A DNA stretch of 64,000 nt, taken from positions 656,033 to 720,032 of the forward strand of contig NZ_CAMPOV010000001.1 of the NCBI RefSeq assembly GCF_946892675.1, read 5' to 3'. The position numbers and the translations under genes were made by a program. Numbering within the stretch: position 1 is the first letter of the stretch; the number at the start of each line of letters is the position of its first letter. The stretch is from Arthrobacter sp. Marseille-P9274 (lineage in GTDB: Bacteria; Actinomycetota; Actinomycetes; Actinomycetales; Micrococcaceae). Of this stretch, positions 1 through 16,662 are shown piece by piece. The notes under the pieces are model-generated. The model saw only the letters and a program-made list of their open reading frames with translations, did not search any database and was not told the DNA's origin.

Positions 1-884
1 TCCCCGTCCCACAGGCTCAGGTTGTGGTGGCAGCCGTTGCCCATCTGGCCGTTGTAGGGCTTGGGCATGAAGCTGGCCGTGACGCCGAACTCGCGGGCCA
101 CCTGCTTGCAGATCTGCCGGTAGGTGACCAGCCGGTCCGCGGTGTTCTCCACGCGGTCGTACATCCAGTTCAGTTCGAGCTGGCCGTCGTCCTCATAGTC
201 GCCCTCGATCATGTCCAGCCCCATCGCCTTCGCGTAGGTGACAATCTGCTTGTAGATCGGGCGCATCCGCTCCAGGTTCTCCACCTGGTAGGCGGGGCTG
301 GTGCCGGGCTTCTTGACGACCTCGAGGCCCGGGCCTTCCCAGGTCATCTCGGGTTCGGTGCCGGAACGGACCTCGAAGCCGGTGCGGGCGGTGAAGTCCT
401 CGTGGCTGCGGATCAGCAGCGAGCGCGTGTCGATCGGCAGCAGGCGGCCGCCGACCTCCGGCAGGTGCGGGGGCTCGTAGGCGGTGCAGAAGATCCGCGC
501 CACCGAGGTGTCCCAGGGCAGCACCACGAAGGTGTCGGGCTCCGGCAGCGCCCAGAACTCGCGGGCCTCGATGCCGCCGCCGATCAGGTTGCCGTAGCGG
601 TCGTTCTGCAGGTCGGACAGGGCGGTGCGGTGGAAGCAGATGCCCTTTTCCAGGTTGCGCTTGAAGTGGTTGGCCGGGACCATCTTGGCCACCATGCGCG
701 AGCCGATGGTCGGCAGCGCGTAATAGACGTACTCGACGCCGGCTTCCTGGATCTTGCGTCCCAGGTCGCGGACGACGTCAGGGCGCAGGTTCCGCTCGCG
801 GTGGCGGGCAAACGCTTCGCGGTCGTTAAGTCCGGCCAGCAGGTCGGTTCCGGCCGAATCGGGCCGTACGGGGGTGAGAGTCAT
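1..884 (-). CDS. Glutamine synthetase-like enzyme (partial, C-terminus beyond left edge)
   Basis: The frame reads open from ATG at 884 to the window edge, giving about 294 residues of the N-terminal and central part of a glutamine synthetase-fold protein. Near the edge it carries FMPKPYNGQMGNGCHHNLSLW, the GS segment around the glutamate/ammonia site, preceded by an acidic stretch with EGDYEDDGQLELNW that carries metal-ligand acids. The sequence is closer to GlnA3/gamma-glutamylamide synthetases than to housekeeping GlnA. It lies 33 bp after the ferredoxin reductase and is probably the last gene of the permease-P450-ferredoxin-reductase operon. Mycobacterial piperidine/pyrrolidine clusters have a GS-like gene in the same place, so ligation of glutamate to an amine or to released ammonia is the likely role. 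The substrate cannot be read from the sequence, and the C-terminal active-site arginines are outside the window. Confidence 0.85.
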   Translation of the reverse strand, partial: MTLTPVRPDSAGTDLLAGLNDREAFARHRERNLRPDVVRDLGRKIQEAGVEYVYYALPTIGSRMVAKMVPANHFKRNLEKGICFHRTALSDLQNDRYGNLIGGGIEAREFWALPEPDTFVVLPWDTSVARIFCTAYEPPHLPEVGGRLLPIDTRSLLIRSHEDFTARTGFEVRSGTEPEMTWEGPGLEVVKKPGTSPAYQVENLERMRPIYKQIVTYAKAMGLDMIEGDYEDDGQLELNWMYDRVENTADRLVTYRQICKQVAREFGVTASFMPKPYNGQMGNGCHHNLSLWDG

Positions 885-917
885 GGCAGTCTTCTTTCAG
901 TCGTTCGTAGCCGGCGG

Positions 918-2210
918 TTAGGCGGCGGCCAGGCGTGCGGCCACACCGGCATCGGTCACGAGCTTGCGGTAGTGCAGTTGCTTGTCGGCGGGCAGGGCAC
1001 AGGTCACGGCTCCGATGAGCCGGCCGCTGCGGTAGTAGCCCAGCGCGGCGCCGGCGGCGGGGCGGTCCGGGTCACCCTCGAGCACCTCGATCCGCTCGGC
1101 GAGCGCCGGGCTGCCGACGCCCTGGATCCGGATTTTGAAGATGTCCGTCCAGAAGGAGGGCAGCGGCGCCGCGGGTTCCGGAACCTCCGCGCCGTTGAGC
1201 CCGGCGACCAGGGCGGGCGCGGCGATCTTGGCCGTGTCCGCCGGGGTGGCCCAGTGCTCGACGCGGCGGGCTCCGGTGCCCGCCCGCTGGTCCGGGTACC
1301 GGGCGACGTCGCCGACGGCCACCACGGACGGCAGCGCCCCGCCGGCGCCGATGACGCGCATCGACTCGTCGCAGAGCACGCCGTCCGCCAGGTCCAGGCC
1401 GTTGCCGGCCAGCCATTCGGTATTCGGCTTTGATCCCACGGCTTCAATCACGACGTCGGCGGGCACCTCGGTGCCGTCCGACAGCCGGACACCGGCGCAC
1501 CTGAGGTGCGATCCGCCGTCGTACCCGTCACCGGACCAGTTTCCCGTCTCGTCCCCTGTCTCTGACAGGAATTCCACCACCCGGTGGCCCGAGAGGCAGC
1601 GGACGCCGTTGCCCTCCAGGAAGCCGCGGACGCCGACGCTCAGCCGCCGGCCGAGGGGACGCTCCATCGGGCCGCTGCCGCCCTCGACGAGCGTGACCCG
1701 GCAGCCCAGGGACGTCGCAGTAGCCGCGGCCTCGCAGCCGATGAAGCCGGCGCCGACCACCACCACGCGCGTGTCCGGCCGCAGTTCCCGGTGCAGCCCC
1801 AGGGTGTCATCGATCGTGCGGATGACGTGGCGGCCATGGCGCGGGCCCGGCACCTCTACCCTTGCGGGGCGGAGGCCGGTGGCGATGACCAGGCCGTCGT
1901 AGGCCAGCTCCTCGCCGGTGGCCAGCGTCAGCGTGCGGGCGGACAGGTCGGCCCGGGTGACCGGCGCGCCGAGCCGCCAGTCGATGCCGGTGGCGGTCCT
2001 TCGCTGGCGCAGCGTGACCGCGGCCAGCGCCTCGGCGGCCGAGCCCGGCGCCGCCAGCAGTTCCTTGGACAGCGGCGGCCGGTTGTAGGGCGGACGGGCC
2101 TCCTGGCCGAGGACGACGATGTCCTCCTCCCAGCCGGCCGAACGCAGTTGTTCGGCGGCGCGCAGCCCTCCCATCGAGGCTCCGGCGACGGCAATTCTGC
2201 GGGTCATCAT
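918..2210 (-). CDS. FAD-dependent ferredoxin reductase of P450 system
   Basis: 430 residues. It is a pyridine-nucleotide-disulfide-type flavoprotein of the putidaredoxin/rubredoxin reductase class: N-terminal FAD motif AGASMGGLRAAEQLR, the PPYNRPPLSK segment, a central NAD(P)H fold VVVVGAGFIGCEAAATA, and a second FAD contact with VVAVGDVARYPD near residue 300. It would pass electrons from NAD(P)H to the ferredoxin encoded just upstream. The start ATG overlaps the ferredoxin stop (TGATG) and its ribosome site AAGGA lies in the ferredoxin tail, so the two are translationally coupled. A second ATG follows immediately (MMTRR), leaving one codon of ambiguity. Confidence 0.93.
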   Translation of the reverse strand: MMTRRIAVAGASMGGLRAAEQLRSAGWEEDIVVLGQEARPPYNRPPLSKELLAAPGSAAEALAAVTLRQRRTATGIDWRLGAPVTRADLSARTLTLATGEELAYDGLVIATGLRPARVEVPGPRHGRHVIRTIDDTLGLHRELRPDTRVVVVGAGFIGCEAAATATSLGCRVTLVEGGSGPMERPLGRRLSVGVRGFLEGNGVRCLSGHRVVEFLSETGDETGNWSGDGYDGGSHLRCAGVRLSDGTEVPADVVIEAVGSKPNTEWLAGNGLDLADGVLCDESMRVIGAGGALPSVVAVGDVARYPDQRAGTGARRVEHWATPADTAKIAAPALVAGLNGAEVPEPAAPLPSFWTDIFKIRIQGVGSPALAERIEVLEGDPDRPAAGAALGYYRSGRLIGAVTCALPADKQLHYRKLVTDAGVAARLAAA

Positions 2211-2401
2211 CAGTCCTTAAGGAAGATCGCCTGGACGGGGCAGACGTCGATGGCTTCCTCCACCTCGTCCAGCAGGGTGTCGTCGAAGGTCGGTTCGTAC
2301 TCGAGCACGCCGTCGGTGTTCATCCGGAACACCTCCGGGGCGGCGATGGCGCACTGGCCGTGGTTGTCGCAGAGGCTGCGGTCGACGTCGATGGTCCGCA
2401 T
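2210..2401 (-). CDS. [3Fe-4S] ferredoxin, P450 redox partner
   Basis: 63 residues, typical for single-cluster ferredoxins of actinobacterial P450 systems. The cluster motif is CDNHGQC near residues 11-17 followed by CPVQAI near residue 54. The second cysteine position of a four-cysteine motif is replaced by histidine, as in [3Fe-4S] (sometimes 3Fe/4Fe) P450 ferredoxins. The protein is acidic, with many Asp/Glu (for example DDTLLDEVEEAIDV), as expected for docking to a P450. It sits between the P450 and the reductase and shares one base with the reductase start, so the three form one electron chain. Confidence 0.95.
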   Translation of the reverse strand: MRTIDVDRSLCDNHGQCAIAAPEVFRMNTDGVLEYEPTFDDTLLDEVEEAIDVCPVQAIFLKD

Positions 2402-2452
2402 GGGAAAGTCCTTCCGTAGGTGGTGCTGTGGTGCTGGGGAGCAGTTGGCGTG

Positions 2453-3652
2453 CTAGGAGCGTTTGGTGAAGCCGATGGGCAGGCGGATGGGGCCGGTGTT
2501 GCCGGAGTCCGGCAGCCACTCGTCGCCGCCGATCAGGTGCGGCTTGGCCAGGCGGCCCGCCAGCAGCGGCAGCGCCTCGCTCATGTCCGCCCGGGCGACG
2601 AAGTGGCCGAGGCAGTGGTGCACCCCGCCGCCGAAACCGTAGTGCGGCGCGTGCTCGCCGAGCAGGTCCATCTCCGGGTTCGGGAAGGCAAGCGGATCCG
2701 TGCCGGAGGACTGGGTGAACAGGTGCACCGTGGTGCCCTTTTCGATGGTCAGGCCCTGGTATTCGAAGTCCTCGACGGCCTCGCGGGTCACCCAGGTGAC
2801 GGTCGGATTGGTGCGCATGACTTCCTCCACGGCCTTGCCGCCGAGCTCGGGCCGCTCCGCCAGCAGTTCCCACTGCTGCGGGTTGCGGATGAAGGACTGC
2901 ATGGCCAGGCCGAGCTGGTTGCGGGTGGTGTCCATGCCGCCGAAGATCAGCAGCACCAGCGCGTTGCGCAGTTCCTCGTCGCTGAGCCGGTCGCCGTCCC
3001 GGCTGGCCAGCACCAGGCGGGAGACGAAGTCCTCGCCCGGGTTTGCCTGCCGGTCCCGGATCAGTTCCTCGGCATAGTCGTAGAGTTCGGCGACGGCCGC
3101 CTCGACCTTGTCCAGGTCCTGCTTGAAGGTCACGCCCAGGGCCAGGCCTACGGTGGAGGCGAGCCGGGCGATCTTCGGCCACTCGCTCTCCGGAATGCCG
3201 AGCAGGATGGTCAGCACGCGGGTGGCGTAGGGCTCGGCGAAGTCGCGGATGAACTCGCACTCGCCCTTCTCGATGAACGCGTCCACCAGCTCGTTGGCCA
3301 GTTCCTGGAACCGGGGCACCAGCTCCTTGATCAGGCGCGGGGAGAAGGCCGGATTGAGCAGCCGGCGGATACGGTGGTGGTCCTCGCCCTCCAGCACCAG
3401 CAGGTTCTTGGTCCACCAGTCGAAGAACAGCCCGCCGTGGACGCCGTTGTGCGCCGGCCACTTGGCGCTGCCCTGGGAGAGCTTGGGGCTCTTGAGCAGC
3501 TTGCTCACTTCGTCGTAGCGCAGCACGGCCAGCCCGAAGTTGGTCCGGGCGTACCAGCTCTGCTCGCGGGCGGTGCGGAGCTCTTCGGACTGCATCGCGA
3601 ACGACGGGTCCGAGATGTTCAGGTAGGGAACCTCAACGGTGGACGTACTCAT
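2453..3652 (-). CDS. Cytochrome P450 (possible secondary cyclic amine hydroxylase)
   Basis: 399 residues, a normal length for a soluble bacterial class I P450. The I-helix oxygen motif is FGGMDTT (about 237-243), the ExxR motif is EVMR (about 277-280), and the haem loop FGGGVHHCLG gives the cysteine ligand near 347. All are intact. It is followed by its own ferredoxin and reductase and a GS-like gene, and preceded by an amino-acid/amine permease. This order resembles the pip/mor clusters of mycobacteria, in which a CYP151-type enzyme opens piperidine, pyrrolidine or morpholine rings. Assignment to CYP151 is inferred from context, not demonstrated. Other N-alkyl amines are possible substrates. 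Confidence 0.9.
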   Translation of the reverse strand: MSTSTVEVPYLNISDPSFAMQSEELRTAREQSWYARTNFGLAVLRYDEVSKLLKSPKLSQGSAKWPAHNGVHGGLFFDWWTKNLLVLEGEDHHRIRRLLNPAFSPRLIKELVPRFQELANELVDAFIEKGECEFIRDFAEPYATRVLTILLGIPESEWPKIARLASTVGLALGVTFKQDLDKVEAAVAELYDYAEELIRDRQANPGEDFVSRLVLASRDGDRLSDEELRNALVLLIFGGMDTTRNQLGLAMQSFIRNPQQWELLAERPELGGKAVEEVMRTNPTVTWVTREAVEDFEYQGLTIEKGTTVHLFTQSSGTDPLAFPNPEMDLLGEHAPHYGFGGGVHHCLGHFVARADMSEALPLLAGRLAKPHLIGGDEWLPDSGNTGPIRLPIGFTKRS

Positions 3653-3711
3653 GGTGGAACCTGTTCTTTCGTCTGTGTGCTACTGGTGGGTGCCCGAGGG
3701 CCGAGGGGTGC

Positions 3712-5226
3712 TCAGTCGGTGAAGGAGTGCCGCGGTCCGGACGGGATGGCGTCGCCGGCCGGGGCATCGCCCTTGAGATAGGGCTTCTTCCAGGCCATGT
3801 AGACCAGCCCCAGGAGAACGACGCCGACGGCGGAGATCAGCACGATGTAGTTCGAGAACCAGCCCGCCTCCGGGGTCCGGGGCCACGCCATGTTGACCAT
3901 GCCGAGCACACCCCAGGCGAGCGCGGCGACGGTGACCGGAATGCCCCAGGCGCCGAGCTGGAAGGCACCTCGCGGACGCCAGCCCTTGAGCCGGGCCCGC
4001 AGGGAGGCCAGGACCACCATTTGGAAGCCCATGTACATGCCCATCGCGGCGAAGGAGATGATGGTGACCAGCGCATCCTCGGACACTTTGGATCCGATCA
4101 CGATCAGCGCCGGGACCAGGCCGGCCAGCAGCAGGGCATACGGCGGCACGTGGCGGGACTCGCTGAACTTGCTGAGCAGCTTGCTCGCCGGGAGGATGCC
4201 GTCGCGGGCCATCGAATAGGCCAGCCTCGAGGACGCCGCCTGCAGGCTCAGTACGCAGGAAACGAAGGAGATCAGGACGACGGCGAGGACCACCTTCATG
4301 CCGACCGGACCGAAGGCCGAGAGGAGCACGTTGCCGACCGGATCGGCGTCGGTCCCGCTGATCACTGCACCGAAGTCCGGCACCGCCAGAATCAGGGACA
4401 GGCAGACGAACATCGCGGCGAAACCGCCGATGTAAATGGTCATCCGCATGGCCTTCGGGATGGTGCGCCCCGGGCTCGGAACTTCCTCGGCCACATCGCC
4501 GCACGCCTCGAACCCGTAGTACTGGTAGATACCGATCAGGCCGGCCGCCGCGAAGGCGATGAAGTAATTGCTGCCCTCCCCAGCGCCGAAGCTCTGGAAG
4601 AGGACGCTCAGGTCGTGGTGCCGGGCGGTGACGATCAGCCAAAACCCGACCACCAGCGCGCCGCCGAGCTCGGCGAGCAGTCCGAGCATGGCGACCTTGT
4701 TCAGCACCTTGGTGCCGCCGAGGTTCAGGATCGTTGCGAGCAGGATGACTCCCAGCGCCGCCAGGATGACCGAGTTGACGCTGCTTTCCATGCCGAGGAG
4801 CGAGCTGAGGAACGGGCCGGCGCCGTAGGCGACGCTGGCAATGGTGGCCAGCAGCGCGCACAGGTAGACCCAGCCGTTCATCCAGCCCCACTTGCGGCCC
4901 CACAGGCGCCGGGACCAGGGGTACACGCCGCCGGCAACCGGGTAGTTGGAAACCACTTCGCCGAACACGGTTGCCACGAGCAGCTGGCCGCCGCCGACGA
5001 TAATGAGCGACCAGAACATGGGCGGCCCGGCGATCCCCAGGGACGCGGCGAACAGCGAGTAGATGCCCACCACCGGAGAAAGGTAGGTGAAGCCGAGGGA
5101 GACGTTCCCCCAGAAAGTCATTTCGCGCTTGAATTGCTGATCGTACGAGTAGCCTAGGCTGGCCAGATGCTCGGCATCCTCATCGATGCCGGCCTCCCCA
5201 GCGGGCCGCGTCATTTCGGCGGACAT
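3712..5226 (-). CDS. APC-family amino acid/amine permease
   Basis: 504 residues with about twelve hydrophobic segments, starting with GNVSLGFTYLSPVVGIYSLF and including AGLIGIYQYYGFEACGDVAEEVPSPGRTIPKA, which carries the APC-superfamily consensus around transmembrane segments 6-7. It resembles bacterial amino-acid/choline/GABA-type transporters. The start ATG has a good ribosome site (AAGGAG, about 8 bases upstream). It is the first gene of the leftward P450 operon, 59 bp before the P450, so it probably imports the amine substrate or an amino-acid derivative of it. An 11-bp dyad lies about 40 bp upstream of the start. Confidence 0.9.
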   Translation of the reverse strand: MSAEMTRPAGEAGIDEDAEHLASLGYSYDQQFKREMTFWGNVSLGFTYLSPVVGIYSLFAASLGIAGPPMFWSLIIVGGGQLLVATVFGEVVSNYPVAGGVYPWSRRLWGRKWGWMNGWVYLCALLATIASVAYGAGPFLSSLLGMESSVNSVILAALGVILLATILNLGGTKVLNKVAMLGLLAELGGALVVGFWLIVTARHHDLSVLFQSFGAGEGSNYFIAFAAAGLIGIYQYYGFEACGDVAEEVPSPGRTIPKAMRMTIYIGGFAAMFVCLSLILAVPDFGAVISGTDADPVGNVLLSAFGPVGMKVVLAVVLISFVSCVLSLQAASSRLAYSMARDGILPASKLLSKFSESRHVPPYALLLAGLVPALIVIGSKVSEDALVTIISFAAMGMYMGFQMVVLASLRARLKGWRPRGAFQLGAWGIPVTVAALAWGVLGMVNMAWPRTPEAGWFSNYIVLISAVGVVLLGLVYMAWKKPYLKGDAPAGDAIPSGPRHSFTD

Positions 5227-5263
5227 TGCGCTCCTTCAGGACTCATAGTTATATGCGGCCAGG

Positions 5264-5308
5264 CGTGGTCTTCGAGGAGCCCCATTCCCCGTTGTGACGA
5301 AGACCACG
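5264..5308. promoter_or_regulatory. Perfect 11-bp inverted repeat upstream of permease-P450 operon
   Basis: CGTGGTCTTCG (5264-5274) is matched exactly by CGAAGACCACG (5298-5308) with 23 bp between. It lies in the 285-bp gap before the permease start. On the minus strand no T-run follows, so an operator for the amine operon is more likely than a terminator. A TATAACT-like -10 box and AAGGAG lie between the dyad and the start. No other gene was found in 5227-5511. Confidence 0.5.
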
Positions 5309-5511: not shown

Positions 5512-6465
5512 CTACAGCAGGGGCCAGACCCGGCGCCGCAGGTCGTACAGCCCCCAGGCCCGGGGAATCAGATCGCAGGCGGCGTCCGAAGCCCGCCGCA
5601 GCTGCTCCATGCCGCCGGCGGTACCGTGCTCCGCACTGGAACCGGCGCGCTTGCTGCTTGGTCTGCCGGGCTCAGTGCTCGGACGGCGGAGCTCGCCGCC
5701 CTGACTGCTGAAGGGACCGGGATAACTACCGGGCTTCCCGGTGGCCCACTCCAGGCCGTGGGAGTAGCCGCTGCAGAACTGCCAGATGTAGATCAGCTCG
5801 GCCGGCACGCCGCCGTCGGCCCTCAGATCCTTGAGGATCGCCGTCTGCGTCCTGTTCTTGGTCGCGTAGCCCCAGCGGCCCTCGGCCTTCTTGGTGAAGA
5901 TCGGCGGCAGGCCAGCCGCCCGGGCCGCCTCGTTCACCTCATGACGGAGTCCCTCGAAGCTAACCTGCGCGTCCGGATGCAGGTCGGGATGCAACTCCTC
6001 GAGGTAGGCGTCCCAGAAGGAGGCCGCATTGAAGACATCCCGTGCGACCAGCACCAGGCTGCGCCGGATTCGCTCGCGGCCCTCCTCCGGCTGTAGCGCC
6101 CAGAGCACCGTCGTGCCGCATTCGATCACCGTCCGGACCAGCGAATAAGGCGCATGCGAGTTCAGCCGGTAGAACACCCCGCCGGACGGGTCCTCCACGA
6201 ACAGCAGCCGCCGCAGCGCCTGCAGGTTGTCCATCGCCGCCGCCAGCGACTGCTGCAGCAGGCTGCTGACGCTCCGCGACGAAGCGAAATGCCGGTCCAT
6301 CAAAGCCAGCGGCGAGCCCGGCTCTACGTCCTCCCCCGCAGGATCCCGCGCACTGAACGGCTCCAGTTCGTCCAGCCGCGCCAGAATCGCGGCCGCCGCC
6401 TGGCCGTCCCGATCCGCTCCGCCTACCCGGCCCGCGCAGCCCTCGGGCACCCGCCCGTCTCCCAT
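5512..6465 (-). CDS. Hypothetical protein, unknown function
   Basis: About 317 residues if started at ATG 6465 (MGDGRV); the open frame continues upstream but there crosses a 29-bp tandem repeat that is unlikely to be coding. The protein is mostly soluble and alpha-helical in appearance, with a conserved-looking core: LALMDRHFASSRSVSSLLQQSL, TVIECGTTVLWALQPEEG, and a C-terminal WQFCSGYSHGLEWATG followed by a polar low-complexity stretch. The pattern of scattered His, Tyr and acidic residues resembles actinobacterial proteins of unknown function. I do not recognise the family. The next gene upstream is divergent. A shorter start (MDRHF) is possible. Confidence 0.6.
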   Translation of the reverse strand: MGDGRVPEGCAGRVGGADRDGQAAAAILARLDELEPFSARDPAGEDVEPGSPLALMDRHFASSRSVSSLLQQSLAAAMDNLQALRRLLFVEDPSGGVFYRLNSHAPYSLVRTVIECGTTVLWALQPEEGRERIRRSLVLVARDVFNAASFWDAYLEELHPDLHPDAQVSFEGLRHEVNEAARAAGLPPIFTKKAEGRWGYATKNRTQTAILKDLRADGGVPAELIYIWQFCSGYSHGLEWATGKPGSYPGPFSSQGGELRRPSTEPGRPSSKRAGSSAEHGTAGGMEQLRRASDAACDLIPRAWGLYDLRRRVWPLL

Positions 6466-6550
6466 GCGGACATCGTAGTCCCGCCTGCTCCCCTGCAGAC
6501 ATCGCAGTCCCGCCCGATCCCGTGCGGACACCGCACTCCCGTCCGATCCC
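6464..6550. repeat. Three tandem 29-bp imperfect repeats
   Basis: Units lie at 6464-6492, 6493-6521 and 6522-6550, sharing the pattern NTGCRGACAYCGNASTCCCG followed by a C/T-rich 9-mer. They sit in the gap between a leftward hypothetical gene and the rightward CoA-transferase. As 29 is not a multiple of three, coding use across units is unlikely. There are no unique spacers, so this is not CRISPR. Confidence 0.85.
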
Positions 6551-6751
6551 TGCGCTCCGGCCTCCCTCCTATCCAGCCCGAACCTCGCCGGGCCCCGAGC
6601 GAACCGTTCGCCTCGTGGGGCTGCCCGACCCTTGTGCATTCCATCCCCCTCTGGGCCGAGTCGTCCAATGCGGAGCACCGAAGGCCTCCCTAGACTGGTC
6701 GCCAGTTCCGGGCCGACAATCGTCCGGCCCCTCCCCAACGAAAGGGCACCG

Positions 6752-7930
6752 ATGCCTGCACAGCCCGGCCTCCCGCCGTCGTCCGCTGCACGCCCGTTGG
6801 AAGGCGTTCTGGTGGCGGACTTTTCCCGCGTGCTGGCCGGGCCGCTGGCCACCATGACGCTGGCCGACCTGGGCGCGCGGGTGGTCAAGGTGGAACGGCC
6901 GGGGGCCGGCGACGACACCCGCAGCTGGGGCCCGCCGTTCTCCGCGACCGGATCGACCTATTTCGAGAGCGTCAACCGGAACAAGGAGTCCGTCTGCCTG
7001 GACCTGTCCGACCCCGGGGACCTCGCTGTGGCCCGGGAACTGGCGCTGCGGGCGGACGTGCTGGTGGAGAACTTCAAGCCCGGCGGCATGGCCAAGCTGG
7101 GCCTGGGCTACGACGAGCTGTCGGCGGAAAATCCCGGGCTCGTCTACGCCTCGATCTCCGGCTTCGGGTCGGCCCAGGGCGCGTCGCTGCCGGGCTACGA
7201 CTTCATCGTGCAGGCGGTCGGCGGGCTGATGAGCATTACCGGCGAGGCGGACGGCTCCCCTTACAAGGCCGGCGTCGCGCTGGTCGACGTGCTGACGGCG
7301 AAGGACGCGACGATCGGCATCCTCGCGGCCCTCACCGCGCGCAACAATTCCGGGCGCGGGAGCCTGCTGGAGGTCAACCTGCTCTCCAGCCTGCAGGGCG
7401 CGCTGGCCAACCAGGCGCAGGCCTACCTCGGCGCGGGCAAGGTGCCCGGCCGGATGGGCAACGAGCACCCCTCGATCGTGCCCTACCAGCTGCTGGAGTG
7501 CGCCGACGGGCCGCTCGCGGTAGCGTGCGGCAATGACGGGCAGTTCCGGCGGCTGGCCGAAGTGCTGGGGCGGCCCGGGCTGGCGGGGGATGCGCGGTTC
7601 GCCACCAATAGCGCCCGGGTGGAACACCGCACCGAACTGATCCCGCTACTGGAGCAGGCCCTTGGCACCGCGACCGCCGCCGTCTGGCAGGACAAGCTCG
7701 TCGGTGTGGGCGTTCCCGCCGGCCCCGTGGCCACCATCGACGCCGGCATCGAGTACGCCGATTCCCTCGGGCTGCAGCCGACCATCGACGTCCAGGACGC
7801 CGCCGGCGAGACGGTCGGCCGGCAGGTCCGGCATCCGATCAGCTGGACTCCCGCCTTCGCACCGCGCAGCAGCGCCCCGCCGGCCCTCGGCGAGCACACC
7901 GAGTCCGTGCTGGAGTGGCTGCGCCGCTGA
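6752..7930 (+). CDS. CaiB/BaiF family III CoA-transferase (glutarate CoA-transferase-like)
   Basis: 392 residues from ATG 6752, chosen because GAAAGGG lies 8 bases upstream; upstream in-frame codons lack coding character. N-terminal PLEGVLVADFSRVLAGPLATMTLADLGARVVKVE is the family III signature. The VNRNKESVCLDLSDP stretch resembles that of SUGCT, the succinate-hydroxymethylglutarate CoA-transferase that also acts on glutarate. The catalytic Asp is probably in GVALVDVLTAKDATIG. It would move CoA between succinyl-CoA and a dicarboxylate. A glutaryl-CoA dehydrogenase gene 3.2 kb downstream makes glutarate the best guess for the acceptor. Confidence 0.85.
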   Translation: MPAQPGLPPSSAARPLEGVLVADFSRVLAGPLATMTLADLGARVVKVERPGAGDDTRSWGPPFSATGSTYFESVNRNKESVCLDLSDPGDLAVARELALRADVLVENFKPGGMAKLGLGYDELSAENPGLVYASISGFGSAQGASLPGYDFIVQAVGGLMSITGEADGSPYKAGVALVDVLTAKDATIGILAALTARNNSGRGSLLEVNLLSSLQGALANQAQAYLGAGKVPGRMGNEHPSIVPYQLLECADGPLAVACGNDGQFRRLAEVLGRPGLAGDARFATNSARVEHRTELIPLLEQALGTATAAVWQDKLVGVGVPAGPVATIDAGIEYADSLGLQPTIDVQDAAGETVGRQVRHPISWTPAFAPRSSAPPALGEHTESVLEWLRR

Positions 7931-7969
7931 GAGGCTGGACCACTCCGCTAAAGGTGAAGTCCGGCGCAG

Positions 7970-9466
7970 TCAGAGTCCGCGGCGGCGGAGGGCGAGCCAG
8001 AGGTGGGCGGCGGTGTCCGGATCATCAAGGCTGACGCCGAGCAGCCTTTGCGCAACGGCGATCCGATGGCGGAGCGAGTTCCGGTGGATCGCGAGATCGC
8101 GCGCTGTGTCCTCCCAATGCCCGCGGCGGCGTAGGTAGGCGGCGACGGCGCCAAGCAGGTCCGCGCGCTGGTAGCCGGCGAGCGCGTCCGCCCACCGTTC
8201 CGCGCGGGAATCCTCATCCCCCGAGGTCCCGACCAGCCGGCCCGCCGGTGCCTGCAGGGCGGCGCGCCGCAGAACGGCGGCCTGGGAGGCAGCGTCGGCC
8301 AGCGGCACGGGCTCGGTCCAGGCCGCACCGGTGCGCGGCCGCTCGGCGGCATCGGACGGGCTCGACTGCTCCCCGCCCGCTGCGTCGGGCCCGCCCTCCC
8401 AAGGCAGCAGTCCGCCGTCGTACTCTTCCGGCTCGGGTGCGGCAATCGGCACCAAGTCGGTCGTGTCCAGCAGGAAGAAGCCGAGCCCGTCCTCGGCGAA
8501 GCGCAGCCGGCTCACGGCCAGGGCCGCGCCCGGCCCCGGGGCACCGTCTTCCGCCGGCAGCCCGGCAACGGTGGCGGCCAGGGCCCGCAGGTCACCGTTT
8601 TCCGTCCGCGCCGCGAGCATGCGCACCCGCTCCGGCAGCGGGCCCAGCCCGACGTCGGCCGCCAGCAGCCGGGCCGCCTCGACGTGCCCGCGGACAATCA
8701 GCTTGGCCACTGCGGACCCCAGCACCGCCGACGTGCCGGTCAGCTCCTCGTGCTGCTGGGCCTTGAGGGCGAGCAGCACGCAGACCGTCATGATGATCTG
8801 CCGGTCCGCCTTGGCCAGGGTGCGCCCAGAGCCGATGGCGAGAAAGCCCTCGATCCGGCGGCCGACCAGGATGGGGTACTCCACCACCGGGCTGCCGTGC
8901 AGCCAGAACGTCGCCGCCGAGTGCGCGCCCGCCCGGTTCAGCCGGGCCGTCTCCTCGCGCAGGTGCGGCAGCAGCGCCGCGGATCCCGTCGGCCAGATCG
9001 TCTCGGCTCCCCCGTCGGCCGGCAAATAAGCGGCCCAGCCGCCGAGCGCCTGCGCCAGCCCCTGCACCACCGACGGCAGTGCATCGGGCCGCATCGCCGC
9101 GCGGGCCAGCGCGGTCTGCGTACCCAGTCCGGCAATCAGGTCCGCCTGCCCGCTGCGCCCGGCCAGGTCCCAGAACGCGCGCGAAACATCGAGGAACGGC
9201 ACGCCGTCCGGCACCACCATGAGCTCCAGCCGCTCCCCGGCGCAGGCCTCGATGAGCGCCGGCGGAACGCTGTCCAGCCCCTCGCCGAGCCCCAGCCCGA
9301 GCGCGGCGACGCCCCTGGCCGCCAACCGGCGGACGTACTCGGATGCCGTAGCCGCCGTTCCGCCGAGGGGAATGCCGGTGGTCAGCAGGAGCTCGCCGCC
9401 CTCCAGATAGGCGGTGGGGTCCTCCAGCTCGGACACATGCACGCCGCTGAGCTGGACGCCGGGCAC
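7970..9466 (-). CDS. PucR-family transcriptional regulator (start region frameshifted)
   Basis: 498 residues from GTG 9466. An N-terminal PucR (purine-catabolism regulator-like) domain begins abruptly at PGVQLSGVHVSELEDPTAYLEG and lacks its first ~22 residues. A GGDEF-like middle and a C-terminal HTH_30 domain (GHWEDTARDLAIHRNSLRHRIA) complete the family layout. The missing start is present one frame over, from ATG 9530 (MVSLAQLSANSAF), and joins in register if one T is removed from the TTT at about 9493-9495. The gene is therefore either frameshifted or misread there. PucR proteins control aminotransferase and amine catabolic genes in actinobacteria. It lies divergent to the aminotransferase operon and convergent with the CoA-transferase, so it is the likely local regulator. 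Confidence 0.88.
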   Translation of the reverse strand: MPGVQLSGVHVSELEDPTAYLEGGELLLTTGIPLGGTAATASEYVRRLAARGVAALGLGLGEGLDSVPPALIEACAGERLELMVVPDGVPFLDVSRAFWDLAGRSGQADLIAGLGTQTALARAAMRPDALPSVVQGLAQALGGWAAYLPADGGAETIWPTGSAALLPHLREETARLNRAGAHSAATFWLHGSPVVEYPILVGRRIEGFLAIGSGRTLAKADRQIIMTVCVLLALKAQQHEELTGTSAVLGSAVAKLIVRGHVEAARLLAADVGLGPLPERVRMLAARTENGDLRALAATVAGLPAEDGAPGPGAALAVSRLRFAEDGLGFFLLDTTDLVPIAAPEPEEYDGGLLPWEGGPDAAGGEQSSPSDAAERPRTGAAWTEPVPLADAASQAAVLRRAALQAPAGRLVGTSGDEDSRAERWADALAGYQRADLLGAVAAYLRRRGHWEDTARDLAIHRNSLRHRIAVAQRLLGVSLDDPDTAAHLWLALRRRGL

Positions 9467-9611: not shown

Positions 9612-11057
9612 ATGACCGCACAGACCTCAGGCCCCGCCCGCTCCCCAGTCCCGCCATCTGGCCACCGCCATCCCCGGCCCCGCTCCAAGGCGCATCACGC
9701 CGAGCGGCAGGCGCACGTGACCGACGGCTTCGGCGTCGCCCTGCCGGTCTTCGTCGAGCGCGCAGACGGCGGCATCCTGGCGGACGTGGACGGCAACCGG
9801 CTGATCGATTTCGCCTCCGGCATCGCGGTCACCAGCATCGGCGCCAGCCACCGGCGGGTCCGCGAGCGCGTGGCCGCACAGCTGGAGCGCTTCACGCACA
9901 CCTGCTTCATGGTCACGGAGTACGAGTCCTTCACCCAGGTCGCCCAGTGGCTCAACGAGCACACGCCCGGCGACTTCGAGAAGCGCACGGCGCTGTTCTC
10001 CACCGGCGCCGAGGCCGTCGAGAACGCGGTCAAGATCGCCCGCTCCGCCACCGGCCGGCCCAAGGTCCTGGTCTTCGACGAGGCCTACCATGGCCGCTCG
10101 CTGCTGACCATGGCCATGACGGCCAAGGAGAATCCGTACCGGCTGAACTTCGGCCCCTTCCCCGCCGAGATCGTGCGCGCGGCGTCGGCCAACCCGCTGC
10201 GTCCCGGCGCCAGCGCCGTTGCCTCCGCGGCAGGAACCAACGACGACGGCGGCCCCGCGTCGGGTGCCGACGTCACCACCGCGGCCCTCGCCTCGGTCGA
10301 GGCAACGCTCGCCGAGCACGGGGCCGACACCTTCGCCGCAATGGTCATCGAGCCGATCCAGGGTGAAGGCGGCTTCGTGGTGCCGGCGCCCGGCTTCCTC
10401 AAGGGACTGCGCGAAATCGCGGACCGGCACGGCATCGTCCTGGTGATCGACGAGATCCAGGCCGGCATGGGCCGCACCGGCGCCCTGTTCGCCAGCGAGC
10501 ACGAGGGCATCGCCGGCGACATGACGCTCAGCGCCAAGGCACTGGCTGGCGGCCTGCCTCTCAGCGCCGTCACCGGGCGGGCCGACCTGATGAATGCCGT
10601 CCATGCCGGCGGCCTCGGCGGCACCTACGCCGGCAACCCGCTCGCCTGCGAGGCGGCGCTGGCCGTGTTCGAGGCGTTCGAGGACGGCAGCCTGCTGGCC
10701 AATGCCCGCGCCATCGAAGCCGCCGCCCGCGAAGTGTTGGAACCGCTCGTGGCTGGCACGGACATCGTCGCCGACTTCCGCGGCCGCGGCGCCATGCTCG
10801 CCCTCGAGTTCGCGGACCAGGACACGCTCGCCCCGCGCGCGGACCTGGCCAAGGAAATCTCCGCGCGCTGCCACGCCCAGGGTGTCCTCACCCTGACCTG
10901 CGGCACCCACGGCAACGTCATCCGGCTGCTGCCGCCGCTGGTCATCGGGGACGGACTGCTCCGCGACGGGCTGGCGGTGCTGCGCCAGGCGATCCTGGAC
11001 GTGGCCGCGGAGGCCGGCGCACGCACCGACGAAGCCGCCGCTCCCGCCCTCGCCTGA
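9612..11057 (+). CDS. gabT: Class III omega-aminotransferase (GABA/5-aminovalerate type)
   Basis: 481 residues. It is a PLP-dependent class III aminotransferase: FSTGAEAVENAVKIARSATGR binds the cofactor phosphate, VIDEIQAGMGRTG holds the Asp that contacts the pyridine nitrogen, and LSAKALAGGLPLSAVTGR supplies the Schiff-base lysine. GGTYAGNPLACEAALAV closes the site as in GabT. A 40-residue proline/histidine-rich head precedes the conserved part, so translation may really begin later. It heads the glutaryl-CoA dehydrogenase/ALDH/HAD operon. With those neighbours it probably converts 5-aminovalerate plus 2-oxoglutarate to glutarate semialdehyde; GABA is the alternative substrate. Confidence 0.9.
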   Translation: MTAQTSGPARSPVPPSGHRHPRPRSKAHHAERQAHVTDGFGVALPVFVERADGGILADVDGNRLIDFASGIAVTSIGASHRRVRERVAAQLERFTHTCFMVTEYESFTQVAQWLNEHTPGDFEKRTALFSTGAEAVENAVKIARSATGRPKVLVFDEAYHGRSLLTMAMTAKENPYRLNFGPFPAEIVRAASANPLRPGASAVASAAGTNDDGGPASGADVTTAALASVEATLAEHGADTFAAMVIEPIQGEGGFVVPAPGFLKGLREIADRHGIVLVIDEIQAGMGRTGALFASEHEGIAGDMTLSAKALAGGLPLSAVTGRADLMNAVHAGGLGGTYAGNPLACEAALAVFEAFEDGSLLANARAIEAAAREVLEPLVAGTDIVADFRGRGAMLALEFADQDTLAPRADLAKEISARCHAQGVLTLTCGTHGNVIRLLPPLVIGDGLLRDGLAVLRQAILDVAAEAGARTDEAAAPALA

Positions 11058-11141
11058 CCGCCGCCGTCGTCAGCCACCCGGCCAGCCGCCGTCGCTAGCC
11101 CTTCCACCCAGCCGCCGCACCTCCCTACAGAAAGCATCACG

Positions 11142-12302
11142 ATGTCCCTCGACTACGACCTGATCAGCTTCGAATCCCTCCTGACCGAGGAGGAGCGGCT
11201 GCTGCAGAAGAACGTGCGCTCCTTCGTCGACTCCGCCATCAAGCCGAACATCGCCGGCTGGTACGAGGACGCCGTCTTCCCGCTGGAGATCGTGCCGGAG
11301 ATGGCCAAGCTGGGCCTGCTCGGCATGCACCTGAAGGGCTACGGCTGCGCCGGCCGCTCCGCCGTCGAGTACGGCCTGGCCGGCGCCGAGCTCGAGGCCG
11401 GCGACTCCGGCCTGCGCACCTTCGTCTCCGTGCAGGGCTCGCTGGCGATGAGCGCCATCTACAAGCACGGCTCCGAGGAGCAGAAGAAGGAGTGGCTGCC
11501 ACAGATGGCCGCCGGCGAGGCGATCGGCTGCTTCGGCCTGACAGAGCCCACCGCCGGCTCCGACCCGGCCGGCATGAAGACCTTCGCCCGCCGCGATGGG
11601 GACGACTGGGTGATCAACGGCGCCAAGCGCTGGATCGGCCTCGCCTCGGTGGCAAAGGTCGCCGTGATCTGGGCACAGACCGACGACGGCGTCCGCGGCT
11701 TCGTGGTGCCAACCGACACCGCCGGGTTCACGGCCACCCCGATCGAGCCCAAGCTGTCCATGCGCGCCTCGATCCAGTGCGACATCGAACTGACCGACGT
11801 GCGGCTGCCCGCCGACGCCCTGCTGCCCAACGCCAAGGGGCTGCGCGGCCCGTTCGAGTGCCTGAACGAGGCCCGCTACGGCATCATCTGGGGCTCGATG
11901 GGCGCGGCCCGCGACGCCTGGCAGGTCGCCGTCGACTACTCCAAGGAGCGCCTGCAGTTCGACAAGCCGCTGGCCGGCTACCAGCTCACGCAGGAAAAGC
12001 TGGTCAACATGGCGCTGGAAATCAACAAGGGCTTCCTGCTCGCGCTGCACCTCGGCCGGCTCAAGGACGCCGGCCAGCTGCAGCCGCACCAGATCTCCGT
12101 GGGCAAGCTGAACAACTGCCGCGAGGCCATCGAGATCGCCCGCGAATGCCGCAGCATCCTCGGCGGAAACGGCATCACGCTCGACTACTCGCCGCTGCGC
12201 CACGCCAACAACCTCGAATCCGTCCGCACCTACGAAGGCACCGACGAAGTCCACACCCTGGTCCTCGGCAACAAAATCACGGGCATCCCCGCCTTCCGGT
12301 AG
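11142..12302 (+). CDS. gcdH: Glutaryl-CoA dehydrogenase
   Basis: 386 residues, the usual size. It matches the glutaryl-CoA dehydrogenase branch of the acyl-CoA dehydrogenases rather than a generic member: KGYGCAGRSAVEYGLAGAELE, IGCFGLTEPTAGSDPAGM, GPFECLNEARYGIIWG, and the C-terminal SILGGNGITLDYSPLRHANNLE followed by TYEGTDEVHTLVLG. The catalytic base is Glu near 365 in TYEGT. The enzyme oxidises and decarboxylates glutaryl-CoA to crotonyl-CoA with FAD. It is preceded by an 84-bp spacer containing CCGCCGTCG repeats and followed by a 16-bp tandem duplication that spans its stop codon. Confidence 0.93.
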   Translation: MSLDYDLISFESLLTEEERLLQKNVRSFVDSAIKPNIAGWYEDAVFPLEIVPEMAKLGLLGMHLKGYGCAGRSAVEYGLAGAELEAGDSGLRTFVSVQGSLAMSAIYKHGSEEQKKEWLPQMAAGEAIGCFGLTEPTAGSDPAGMKTFARRDGDDWVINGAKRWIGLASVAKVAVIWAQTDDGVRGFVVPTDTAGFTATPIEPKLSMRASIQCDIELTDVRLPADALLPNAKGLRGPFECLNEARYGIIWGSMGAARDAWQVAVDYSKERLQFDKPLAGYQLTQEKLVNMALEINKGFLLALHLGRLKDAGQLQPHQISVGKLNNCREAIEIARECRSILGGNGITLDYSPLRHANNLESVRTYEGTDEVHTLVLGNKITGIPAFR

Positions 12303-12322
12303 CCGGGCCTTCCGGTAGCCGG
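12291..12322. repeat. Perfect 16-bp tandem duplication across gcdH stop codon
   Basis: GCCTTCCGGTAGCCGG occurs at 12291-12306 and again at 12307-12322. The first copy contains the last two codons and TAG stop of glutaryl-CoA dehydrogenase, and the second repeats them in the spacer. Confidence 0.95.
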
Positions 12323-12329
12323 GCCGCGT

Positions 12330-12361
12330 CCGGCCGCGGGATGAGTCAGCTCCGCGGCCGG
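12330..12361. terminator. GC-rich hairpin between gcdH and ALDH (possible attenuator)
   Basis: CCGGCCGCGG (12330-12339) pairs with CCGCGGCCGG (12352-12361) over a 12-nt loop. No U-run follows, so it may be a transcript-stability element or partial attenuator rather than a full terminator. The remainder of the 156-bp gap before the ALDH shows nothing else. Confidence 0.45.
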
Positions 12362-12458
12362 GCCCGGGCTTCGGCCCATCCTGGTCTCTTGCCTGTCCGC
12401 CCTTGCCCGTCCTGCCCCTCCACCTTTCCTCCCCTCTTGTTACGTCCAAGGAGCGCGC

Positions 12459-13934
12459 ATGAACTCCCCCACGCCCGTACAGCTGCAGCACTACATCGAC
12501 GGCGCCTGGCTCGAGGGCGACGGTTCCCCGATCGCCAGCACCAACCCGGCCCGCCCGGAGGAGACCGTAGCGCGGGGGCGGCAGGCCGGCGCCGCCGAGG
12601 TGGACCGGGCCGCAGCCGCAGCCGCCGCCGCCAAGCGGGAGTGGGCGCGCACCCCGGCGCACGAGCGCGGCGCGGTGCTGCTGCGCGCGGCCGCCGAGCT
12701 GGAGCGGAACGCCGACGCCTGGGGGCTGGAGCTGGCCCGAGAGGAAGGCAAGACCGTCGCCGAGGGCCGCGGCGAGGTGCTGCGCGCGGCCCAGATCTTC
12801 CGGTACTACGGCAACGACGGCGACCGCACGGCCGGCGAAATCTTCGCGTCCCCGCGGCGCGGCGAGAAGATCCTCGTCACCCGCAAGCCGCTCGGCGTGA
12901 TCGGCGTGGTCACCCCGTTCAACTTCCCGATTGCCATTCCGGCGTGGAAGATCGCCCCGGCGCTGGCCTACGGCAACACGGTGGTCTGGAAACCGGCCAG
13001 CACCGTGCCGCTGCTGGCCGTGCGCTTGGCCCAGGCGCTCGACGCCGCCGGGCTGCCGGCCGGTGTGCTGAACCTGCTGATCGGCCCCGGTTCCATGGGC
13101 AACGCCGTCGTCGAACACCCCGCGCTGGACGGGCTGACCTTCACCGGCTCCACCGGCGTAGGGCGTCGGCTCGCCGCCGCGGCCGCCGGCCGGGGCATCC
13201 CGGTGCAGGCCGAAATGGGCGGCAAGAACGCGGCCGTCGTGCTCGCCGACGCCGACCTGGAACTGGCCGCCGAACAGGTCATGCTCGGCGCCTTCCGCTC
13301 CACCGGGCAGAAGTGCACCGCCACCTCGCGGCTGATCGTGGCCGAAGCCATCGCGGACGAATTCCTTGCGACGCTGTCCGAACGCGTCTCTTCCCTATCG
13401 GTCGGGGACCCGACCGATCCATCGGTGGCCATGGGGCCCGTGGTCAATGACGCCGCACGCAAGTCCATCCTGGACGGGATCGGCACCGCGCTTGCCCAGG
13501 GCGCGGAGCTGATTGCCGGAGGCAAAGCGTACGACGACGGTGTGCTCGCCTCAGGCTATTTCGTCCCTCCGACAATTTTGGAGCTGCCGGCCGACCGCGA
13601 GCTGGACGTCTGGCGCGAAGAGCTCTTCGGCCCGGTCCTCGCCGTCCGGCGCGCAGCCAGCACCGAGCAGGCCTTCGAGCTCGCCAACGACAGCGAGTTC
13701 GGCCTCTCCGCCGCCCTGTTCACCCAGGACGTCACCCGCGCCCTGGATGCCATCGACGACCTGGACGTCGGCATCCTCCATGTGAACTCCGAATCCGCCG
13801 GAGCCGACCCGCACGTCCCGTTCGGCGGCGCGAAGAAGTCCGGCTACGGCCCCAAGGAACAGGGCGCCGCGGCCAAGGACTTCTTCACCCACACCACCAC
13901 CGTCTACCTCCGAGGCGGAGCGGCCGGCGTATAG
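12459..13934 (+). CDS. Aldehyde dehydrogenase (probable glutarate/succinate semialdehyde oxidation)
   Basis: 491 residues, an NAD(P)-dependent ALDH with all key parts: VTPFNFPIAIPAWKIAPALAYGNTVVWKPA (cofactor and oxyanion Asn), TFTGSTGVGRRLA (Rossmann), QAEMGGKNAAVVL (general base Glu252) and STGQKCTATSR (nucleophile Cys286). It resembles 2,5-dioxovalerate and succinate/glutarate semialdehyde dehydrogenases. AAGGAGCG precedes the ATG. Its position between glutaryl-CoA dehydrogenase and 3-hydroxyacyl-CoA dehydrogenase, in the aminotransferase operon, points to oxidation of the semialdehyde made by the aminotransferase. Chain length (C4 or C5) is inferred from the neighbours. Confidence 0.9.
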   Translation: MNSPTPVQLQHYIDGAWLEGDGSPIASTNPARPEETVARGRQAGAAEVDRAAAAAAAAKREWARTPAHERGAVLLRAAAELERNADAWGLELAREEGKTVAEGRGEVLRAAQIFRYYGNDGDRTAGEIFASPRRGEKILVTRKPLGVIGVVTPFNFPIAIPAWKIAPALAYGNTVVWKPASTVPLLAVRLAQALDAAGLPAGVLNLLIGPGSMGNAVVEHPALDGLTFTGSTGVGRRLAAAAAGRGIPVQAEMGGKNAAVVLADADLELAAEQVMLGAFRSTGQKCTATSRLIVAEAIADEFLATLSERVSSLSVGDPTDPSVAMGPVVNDAARKSILDGIGTALAQGAELIAGGKAYDDGVLASGYFVPPTILELPADRELDVWREELFGPVLAVRRAASTEQAFELANDSEFGLSAALFTQDVTRALDAIDDLDVGILHVNSESAGADPHVPFGGAKKSGYGPKEQGAAAKDFFTHTTTVYLRGGAAGV

Positions 13935-13967
13935 CCCGGACTCCGAGGGGCCCGGCGCATGACCCGA

Positions 13968-14019
13968 CCACCCGCCGTCGTCCGCCACCCGCTCCCCAGG
14001 CCACCCGCCGTCGTCCGCC
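13968..14019. repeat. 19-bp direct repeat with 33-bp period in spacer
   Basis: CCACCCGCCGTCGTCCGCC is found at 13968-13986 and 14001-14019, in the 109-bp gap between the ALDH and 3-hydroxyacyl-CoA dehydrogenase genes. Related CCGCCGTCG(T/C) blocks occur in the earlier spacer of the same operon (about 11060 and 11085). Confidence 0.9.
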
Positions 14020-14043
14020 TCCCGCGCCTACCCGAAGGAAACC

Positions 14044-14922
14044 ATGAGCTTCCCCAGCATCGAGAACATCAAGCACATCCTCGTCATCGGCTCCGGCGCC
14101 ATGGGCTCGCAGATCGGCATGGTCGCGGCCCTCGCCGGCTACCGCGTGAGCGTCCAGGACATCGCTGAGGACATGCTCGCGCAGGCGAAAGAGCAGCTGA
14201 CCGCGCGGATGCAGGCCAACGTCGCCAAGGGCAGGACGGACGCCGAGGACGCGGAGGTGGCGCTGGGCCGGCTCACGTTCACCACGGATCTGGCGGCTGC
14301 CGCGGCGGACGCCGACTTCGTGATCGAGGCGGCCACCGAGCGGCTGGACGTCAAGCGGCAGATCTTCGAGCGGCTGGGGGAACTCGCGCCGGCCCACGCC
14401 GTCCTCGCCACCAACTCGTCCACCCTCGGCTCCTCCAAGGTCGCCGACGCCAGCGGGCGCCCGGAACAGGTCTGCAACATGCATTTCTTCAACCCGGCCC
14501 TGGTCATGAAGTGTGTAGAGGTAGTCCGGCACGGGCAGACATCGGACGCCACCGTCGAGGCCACCATGGAACTGGCCCGCCGGTTCGGGAAGGAGCCGGT
14601 CCTGATCAACCGCGAGATCCCGGGCTTCGTCGCCAACCGGCTGATGGGCGCCGTGCAGAAGGAAGCACTCGCCCTCCACAGCGCGGGCATCGCGAGCGTC
14701 GGGGACATCGACACGACCGCCAAGGCGGCGCTCGGCCACCCGATGGGGCCGTTCGAACTGATGGACATGGTGGGCCTGGACGTCATCGCGTTCATCGCCG
14801 AGGCGACGCACGCGGAGACCGGGAACGACGACGACCTTCCGCACCCGGCCATCGCCCGCCTGGTCGCGGAGGGCAAGCTCGGGCGCAAGTCCGGTCAGGG
14901 CTGGTACACCTACGGCAAGTAG
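14044..14922 (+). CDS. 3-hydroxyacyl-CoA dehydrogenase (3-hydroxybutyryl-CoA type)
   Basis: 292 residues, the short stand-alone form. The NAD fold is HILVIGSGAMGSQIGMVAAL, followed by DFVIEAATERLDVKRQIF; the catalytic His sits in CNMHFFNPALVMKCVEVV, and GFVANRLMGAVQKEA plus GHPMGPFELMDMVGLDV form the C-terminal dimer domain. CGAAGGAAACC precedes the ATG. It would oxidise (S)-3-hydroxybutyryl-CoA to acetoacetyl-CoA. This is the step after hydration of the crotonyl-CoA produced by the glutaryl-CoA dehydrogenase in this operon. No enoyl-CoA hydratase is encoded nearby, so that activity must come from elsewhere in the genome. Confidence 0.92.
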   Translation: MSFPSIENIKHILVIGSGAMGSQIGMVAALAGYRVSVQDIAEDMLAQAKEQLTARMQANVAKGRTDAEDAEVALGRLTFTTDLAAAAADADFVIEAATERLDVKRQIFERLGELAPAHAVLATNSSTLGSSKVADASGRPEQVCNMHFFNPALVMKCVEVVRHGQTSDATVEATMELARRFGKEPVLINREIPGFVANRLMGAVQKEALALHSAGIASVGDIDTTAKAALGHPMGPFELMDMVGLDVIAFIAEATHAETGNDDDLPHPAIARLVAEGKLGRKSGQGWYTYGK

Positions 14923-15392: not shown

Positions 15393-15394
15393 GG

Positions 15395-16653: not shown

Positions 16654-16662
16654 GACGAAGCC

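Follow-up and report, generated by a model that had tools for sequence, protein, structure and literature searches.

A candidate two-module route from a piperidine-type cyclic amine to central metabolism in Arthrobacter sp. Marseille-P9274

Among the known systems closest to the locus presented here are the mycobacterial pip and mor clusters. PipA and MorA are the characterised cytochrome P450s (P450s) of this cluster type: PipA was induced on piperidine and MorA oxidised morpholine together with an adjacent reductase and ferredoxin (PMC9477822). The locus lies at the left-hand end of a 64,000-nucleotide stretch of DNA from Arthrobacter sp. Marseille-P9274 (the window; G000:C1:656033–720032 of a genome of 4.78 Mb) and combines a P450 operon with a block of genes for glutarate metabolism (the glutarate block). 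With the mycobacterial clusters (PipA, MorABC; CYP151) it shares the P450, a 3Fe-4S ferredoxin, a reductase and a glutamine synthetase (GS)-like gene, in what we take to be the same order, and a GntR-type regulator. The presence of this characteristic gene set supports the resemblance to mycobacterial piperidine, pyrrolidine and morpholine clusters that had been noted in an earlier inspection made without database searches (the sequence-only reading). Beyond these shared genes, the neighbourhood in Arthrobacter also carries a permease, two PuuD-like hydrolases, an SBP-like gene lacking a signal sequence, a cache-domain protein, an aldehyde dehydrogenase (ALDH) and the linked glutarate block.

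The downstream part of the route has been drawn before. The legend to figure 5 of one paper gives a scheme leading from piperidine via 5-aminovalerate and glutarate to crotonyl-CoA with a 1-piperideine dehydrogenase and a CoA synthetase; the step after ring opening is drawn there as a plain dehydrogenase, and no P450 step appears in it (PMC8271443). The lysine route via 5-aminovalerate, glutarate and glutaryl-CoA has the transaminase, the semialdehyde dehydrogenase, CoA activation, glutaryl-CoA dehydrogenase (GCDH) and the hydroxyacyl-CoA dehydrogenase in common with the locus. The logic shared with the Puu putrescine pathway of E. coli is that of an amine–glutamate ligase, an ALDH, a gamma-glutamyl hydrolase and a GabT-type transaminase. 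In the Arthrobacter locus, however, a P450 system takes the place of the oxidase PuuB, the predicted exit is through C5 glutarate instead of succinate, and ligase and hydrolase score far under the cut-offs of the Puu models. The P450 type and the downstream route are already known, while the gamma-glutamyl middle part and the recurrent linkage are apparently undescribed: neither a gamma-glutamyl route nor a GCDH–CYP151 linkage was found in searches of an open-licence library. The Gulosibacter authors linked up-regulated GS genes beside P450s to ammonium assimilation (PMC9477822), and the gamma-glutamyl reading given below differs from theirs.

We consider it fairly probable that the locus encodes a two-module route by which a piperidine-type saturated cyclic amine is converted, via gamma-glutamyl intermediates, to compounds of central metabolism. 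In module 1, the permease would import the cyclic amine, and reductase, ferredoxin and P450 would hydroxylate the carbon adjacent to the nitrogen. The resulting hemiaminal would open to 5-aminopentanal, in equilibrium with 1-piperideine, and the GS-like ligase would cap the free amino group with glutamate, by which re-cyclisation is proposed to be prevented. An ALDH encoded to the left of the window (module-1 ALDH) would oxidise the aldehyde, after which a PuuD-like hydrolase would release 5-aminovalerate and glutamate. In module 2, 5-aminovalerate would be converted to glutarate semialdehyde by the GabT-like transaminase, the semialdehyde to glutarate by the ALDH of the block, glutarate to glutaryl-CoA by the CoA-transferase and glutaryl-CoA to crotonyl-CoA by GCDH. 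A hydratase encoded elsewhere in the genome would then yield 3-hydroxybutyryl-CoA, from which the 3-hydroxyacyl-CoA dehydrogenase would make acetoacetyl-CoA. The substrate, the order of the steps and the identity of the glutamylated intermediate are as we infer them from the genes; on grounds of general biochemistry, the presence of GCDH favours a C5 chain over C4 (pyrrolidine) or morpholine. In the sequence-only reading, oxidative opening of piperidine gave 5-aminovalerate. That part is incomplete, as the ligase and hydrolase genes and the outside ALDH change the proposed intermediate chemistry: after ring opening, the amine probably travels in gamma-glutamylated form, in a Puu-like manner, before being passed to the glutarate block as 5-aminovalerate. 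Many drugs and pesticides contain saturated N-heterocycles, which reach soil and water. If true, the proposal would make available an almost full set of genes for the breakdown of piperidine, would explain the regular company of GS-like and hydrolase genes with the P450, and would supply markers with which such degraders could be recognised in genomes.

Gene content, enzyme families and conserved linkage are established by the sequence. Among 197 Micrococcaceae genomes (thresholds E <= 1e-80 for the P450, E <= 1e-50 for the PuuD-like protein and E <= 1e-130 for GCDH), the P450 was present in 24. A PuuD-like gene occurred in 27 genomes, namely in all 24 P450-positive ones and in 3 of the 173 others, and it lay no more than 12 kb from the P450 in 22 of the 24, being on a different contig in the remaining two. 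GCDH was found in 143 genomes, including 23 of the P450-positive ones, and lay at most 30 kb from the P450 in 18 of the latter 24. A second survey covered 396 genomes of genus g49 (P450 at E <= 1e-100, GCDH at E <= 1e-130). This genus is probably Mycobacterium; a single genome may hold as many as 84 P450 candidates, and the best GCDHs are 73–98 % identical to 3swo, a mycobacterial enzyme. The P450 was present in 44 of these genomes, with GCDH within 12 kb in 28 of the 44, an event expected in about 0.7 % of cases per genome under uniform placement. Given how often GCDH lies close to the P450 in the two surveys (18 of 24 and 28 of 44 genomes), the link between the P450 operon and the glutarate block is not a matter of chance. 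When 14 of the g49 loci were read over 19–20 kb each, FCD, GS, SBP-like and PuuD-like genes were present in all of them and block genes in 11. In a set of 22 module-bearing stretches, the GS-like gene was present in all and the PuuD-like gene in 21. The permease is kept beside the P450 in most module-bearing stretches, and many relatives have the 3-hydroxyacyl-CoA dehydrogenase gene in their block. By these counts the GS-like ligase and the PuuD-like hydrolase are constant companions, which the ALDH and the redox partners, treated below, are not.

Because the genomes of a group share ancestry, the counts do not represent independent events, and the arrangement of the genes is better evidence. 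The block is divergent on the permease side in Arthrobacter (the present strain, L015–L018 and G136), in G143 and in g49 loci of G689, G708 and G602. The P450 operon is co-linear and downstream of the block in G079 and in five genomes of group g22, taken to be Paeniglutamicibacter, in which the two lie 14–29 kb apart; it is co-linear and upstream in G104. Eight of the 14 g49 loci have the block on the PuuD side in convergent orientation. That the neighbourhood has persisted through so much rearrangement is most simply put down to shared function, be it after several joinings or after one joining that was later reshuffled. The proposition that ring opening and the steps from 5-aminovalerate to crotonyl-CoA are neighbours is in this respect supported by the families to which the enzymes belong, by the P450 tree and by the recurrence of the linkage across distant genera with differing gene orders. 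The association belongs to the closer P450 clade: around four P450s of 52–56 % identity (in G351, G434, G566 and G414), both module and block were absent from the surrounding 10 kb or so, and an R. opacus P450 (53 %) had no GS-like gene in its neighbourhood. A broader and more tentative proposal, to which we give slightly less than an even chance, is that module-bearing CYP151-type clusters in general (Arthrobacter, probable Mycobacterium and related proteobacterial plasmids) are gamma-glutamyl pathways. In these the P450 would open the ring and the unstable amino aldehyde would be trapped and carried as a glutamate conjugate. A conserved subunit, cytoplasmic and similar to binding proteins, may assist by recognising the glutamyl amino-acid end, the C5 version having been joined repeatedly to the glutarate block.

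Two plasmids carry related genes. The RDX region of Gordonia pGKT2 has the order FCD regulator, cache protein, related P450 (61 %) and GS-like domain (57 %) in common with the locus, whereas no hydrolase or glutarate block was matched over the 25 kb read there. The GS domain is followed by another P450, presumably XplA. The RDX genes sit after an apparent remnant of module 1 (L011:10476-17487), and a cyclic-amine operon may have been the starting point from which the RDX system arose. A Paracoccus plasmid (L012:3061-14454) encodes a 57 % identical P450, two GS-like proteins, an annotated gamma-glutamyl-GABA hydrolase and two ALDHs, with an annotated flavoprotein reductase gene in place of the ferredoxin pair.

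The P450 operon reads permease–P450–3Fe-4S ferredoxin–reductase–GS-like gene on the minus strand, all five as named in the sequence-only reading and confirmed by domain matches. The P450 shares 98 % identity with its counterpart in Arthrobacter mangrovi NBRC 112813, which carries the same cluster, and 82–95 % with those at other named Arthrobacter loci, and its signature FGGGVHHCLG (pattern FGGGxHxCLG) and I-helix motif GGMDTT (pattern GGxDTT) are intact. The best solved chains were 3p3l (252 bits) and 3p3o (250 bits), with the next protein at 175 bits; they are labelled merely cytochrome P450 in the structure table, and we take them to be AurH. AurH is named CYP151A in print (PMC7369989). In a tree of 47 rows, in which it is the sole named CYP151 sequence, AurH joined the group of the Arthrobacter P450 with 100/99 support, and seven other P450s of the same genome and XplA fell outside that group. 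AurH is on a long branch, so that its exact position is uncertain, and it is 37 % identical to the P450; CYP families are named by an identity of about 40 % or more to a member. In the comparison with CYP151 suggested by the sequence-only reading, the P450 thus grouped with one named member, the substrate of which, aureothin, is unrelated, though this member is distant in identity and branch length. On the basis of the tree we regard the P450 as CYP151-type. A role in secondary metabolism like that of AurH was considered and rejected in view of the 37 % identity, the long AurH branch and the catabolic neighbours. The cluster type of the ferredoxin would be 3Fe-4S, to judge from its CxxHxxC…CP pattern.

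The GS-like protein has a full length of 477 aa, of which the N-terminal 294 aa are encoded inside the window and the remainder leftward to G000:C1:655483. Its nearest solved chain is glutamate–methylamine ligase 9qur (192 bits), followed by 7cql (190 bits), deposited as type III glutamate–ammonia ligase, while chains named glutamine synthetase score at most 154 bits. The best NCBIfam model is also type III glutamate–ammonia ligase (283 of 470 bits). A DGSS motif was looked for in the N-terminal 294 aa and was not found. The PuuD-like protein P0004 matches Lin1909 (3fij, 84 bits) and E. coli PuuD (6vtv, 76 bits) and retains AICRG and QWHPE. Ligase, ALDH and gamma-glutamyl hydrolase, the Puu-type gene set, occur together in this genome, whereas the curated Puu models are missed by ligase and hydrolase (GGputSyn 200 of 650 bits, PuuD 79 of 266), which may therefore work like Puu enzymes and are not classed as such.

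These hydrolases are found where the cluster extends past the left edge of the window, by about 6 kb, into the neighbouring stretch L009 (C1:636033–656032). There, after the GS-like gene, come an SBP_bac_3-like gene and two PuuD-like peptidase C26 genes, the first of which was recognised through a 36 % match to the second, as well as a cache-domain gene, a GntR/FCD regulator gene on the opposite strand and the module-1 ALDH gene. The nearest solved chain of this ALDH is 3vz0 (putative ALDH), with succinate semialdehyde dehydrogenases next; its gene is a candidate for the first aldehyde step, which in the sequence-only reading lacked a dedicated gene. By eye, no signal peptide was seen in any of 32 SBP_bac_3-like proteins (the Arthrobacter protein and 31 from module-bearing relatives), all of which start just ahead of a conserved LRLACIDSEAPPLF-like stretch. 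The amino-acid-binding Arg and Asp positions also appear by eye to be retained. Either a binding protein of the cytoplasm or an enzyme that evolved from such a protein may be encoded here.

The enzymes named for the glutarate block in the sequence-only reading were likewise all found side by side. A plus-strand run of transaminase, GCDH, ALDH and 3-hydroxyacyl-CoA dehydrogenase genes stands to the right of a PucR-type regulator gene that had earlier been left unnamed; its product presumably controls the block (module 2), and the GntR/FCD protein would regulate module 1. Nine of the ten best solved chains for GCDH are named (putative) GCDH, among them 3swo (556 bits), 3sf6 (531 bits) and the human enzyme 1sir (366 bits); the exception, 4w9u (374 bits), is named acyl-CoA dehydrogenase, and the next-ranked protein is acyl-CoA oxidase 4 (260 bits). 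The motif DSGLRTFVSVQ corresponds to human DSGYRSAMSVQ and TYEGT is retained, the Arg/Ser and catalytic Glu at these positions having presumably the roles that they have in the human enzyme. With the acyl-CoA dehydrogenase identified as GCDH by nearest structures and motif, a reading of the block as an adipate/caprolactam pathway was rejected. The CoA-transferase, the true start of which is probably near 6752, is probably a succinyl-CoA:glutarate CoA-transferase: the succinate–glutarate CoA-transferase model was its best NCBIfam match (350 of 750 bits), and it scored 295 bits with human SUGCT (9br6), formyl-CoA transferase chains (309 bits) and CaiB/BaiF (302 bits) ranking higher. The ALDH of the block (best NCBIfam model alpha-ketoglutaric semialdehyde dehydrogenase, 513 of 770 bits; best solved chains 4o6r and 4go3, about 310 bits) is probably a glutarate semialdehyde dehydrogenase and the omega-aminotransferase probably a 5-aminovalerate transaminase. 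The genome carries a second, intact GabT that is 55 % identical to the latter, which fits, without proving, a different substrate for the transaminase of the block. An enoyl-CoA hydratase (ECH_1) match was seen neither in the window nor beside it, as had been anticipated, and the 11 ECH_1 matches of the genome lie elsewhere. The route, called a candidate complete route in the sequence-only reading, is complete if one of these is counted and falls short otherwise.

Several observations weigh against the two-module route. In both modules the enzymes score below the curated NCBIfam cut-offs; GCDH reached 182 of 470 bits with its own model (NF045552), behind FadE (256 bits) and the acryloyl-CoA reductase AcrC (217 bits), the scores for which are below their cut-offs as well. 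GCDH has no second match in the genome at E <= 1e-130 (of 22 candidates, 9 were scored), and P450-negative genomes also contain the block, which is therefore not exclusive to cyclic amines. No GCDH linkage was seen in six of the 24 P450-positive Micrococcaceae genomes (GCDH on another contig in three, no match in one, no listed position in G049 and G155) or in 16 of the 44 P450-positive g49 genomes, 12 of which have GCDH on other contigs only. The other four (G614, G668, G691 and G760, the last with 44 of 79 candidates scored) have no GCDH at E <= 1e-130. G614 and G668 keep module 1, which can therefore work without module 2 and perhaps serves pyrrolidine or morpholine there. Redox partners vary in the 14 g49 loci (ferredoxin match in nine, reductase in three), and the module-1 ALDH adjoins the module in 11 of the 22 module-bearing stretches and in 7 of the 14 g49 loci and was not seen in the Arthrobacter loci L016–L018 or the five g22 genomes. 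A single ancestral joining followed by rearrangement would also be compatible with the linkage.

The right-hand block might be an independent, lysine-derived 5-aminovalerate/glutarate pathway that merely neighbours the P450 operon, which we hold to be unlikely. As a control, 17 block loci of 17–20 kb each were hand-picked from about 120 GCDH-positive, P450-negative Micrococcaceae genomes. The CoA-transferase was near GCDH in all 17, an ALDH in 10 and GabT in 6, and GS or PuuD genes were found in none, so that the block stands alone elsewhere; this, the much wider distribution of GCDH than of the P450 (143 against 24 genomes) and the single GCDH match in the present genome are what an independent pathway would lead one to expect. 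The lack of GS and PuuD genes at these P450-free loci at the same time speaks for the two-module route. The recurrence of the neighbourhood in distant genera, in differing gene orders, argues against it, as does the lack of a PF01276 Orn/Lys/Arg decarboxylase in the genome, other lysine routes not having been tested. Less doubtful, though still on the improbable side, is that the natural substrate is another amine, such as pyrrolidine, morpholine, azepane, an N-alkyl piperidine or a plant piperidine alkaloid. The related P450s are broad, with piperidine and pyrrolidine for PipA, morpholine for MorA and azepane proposed for Gulosibacter homologues (PMC9477822), and the four g49 genomes without a GCDH match point the same way. 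The recurrent linkage of GCDH, however, suits a C5 chain, whereas pyrrolidine would require a succinate semialdehyde route and azepane an adipate route.

The order of steps within module 1 could also be reversed. In the isopropylamine (Ipu) pathway, glutamylation precedes the later steps; by analogy, the ligase would form the gamma-glutamyl amide, the P450 would hydroxylate the conjugate and the hydrolase would free the opened product. The presence of GS-like and hydrolase genes within the P450 operon in nearly all module-bearing stretches is in line with this order, and so is the Paracoccus plasmid with its doubled GS-like and ALDH genes and annotated hydrolase. We nevertheless think it quite improbable, as a secondary ring amine is, by general chemistry, a poor substrate for such a ligase and as MorA with its own partners oxidises morpholine (PMC9477822). 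For the route in which the P450 acts before the ligase, the features concerned are collected in Table 1.

Table 1 Predicted features of the locus (window positions unless a contig or neighbouring stretch is given)
Feature	Position	Strand	Basis or remark
GS-like amine–glutamate ligase (gamma-glutamylamide synthetase type)	1..884	-	Gln-synt_C
FAD ferredoxin reductase	918..2210	-	Pyr_redox_2 1.8e-54
3Fe-4S type ferredoxin, 63 aa	2210..2401	-	CxxHxxC…CP; Fer4_15 8.7e-14
Cytochrome P450, CYP151-type	2453..3652	-	p450 domain
APC amine/amino-acid permease	3712..5226	-	AA_permease_2 1.7e-42; heads P450 operon
Family III CoA-transferase	6632..7930	+	CoA_transf_3 1.5e-113
PucR-type regulator	7970..9466	-	PucR 1.2e-20, HTH_30 5.8e-16
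Omega-aminotransferase, GabT family	9612..11057	+	PRK06058 581 bits, cut-off 639
Glutaryl-CoA dehydrogenase (GCDH)	11142..12302	+	nearest solved chains
Aldehyde dehydrogenase (ALDH)	12459..13934	+	NCBIfam, solved chains
3-Hydroxybutyryl/3-hydroxyacyl-CoA dehydrogenase	14044..14922	+	PRK05808 273 bits, cut-off 408
Module-1 ALDH	G000:C1:650073–651461		candidate for first aldehyde step
SBP_bac_3-like gene	L009:18729-19517	-	between GS and PuuD genes

Other genes were seen in and around the locus. A minus-strand open frame of 468 aa (window 5512-6918) overlaps the start of the CoA-transferase gene; a Pfam search gave no match for it, and frames 53–67 % similar to it are present in L016, L017, L019 and L029. 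To the right of the block (window 14942-18161), genes for a P-II nitrogen regulator, an isocitrate/isopropylmalate dehydrogenase-like protein and another ALDH were found. A second P450-rich stretch starts at the right edge of the window (window 59000-64000 and C1:720419-724576), with P450 matches at C1:716147, 720419 and 723713, the first of which adjoins genes for an FAD-binding monooxygenase-like protein, a short-chain dehydrogenase and an alpha/beta hydrolase.

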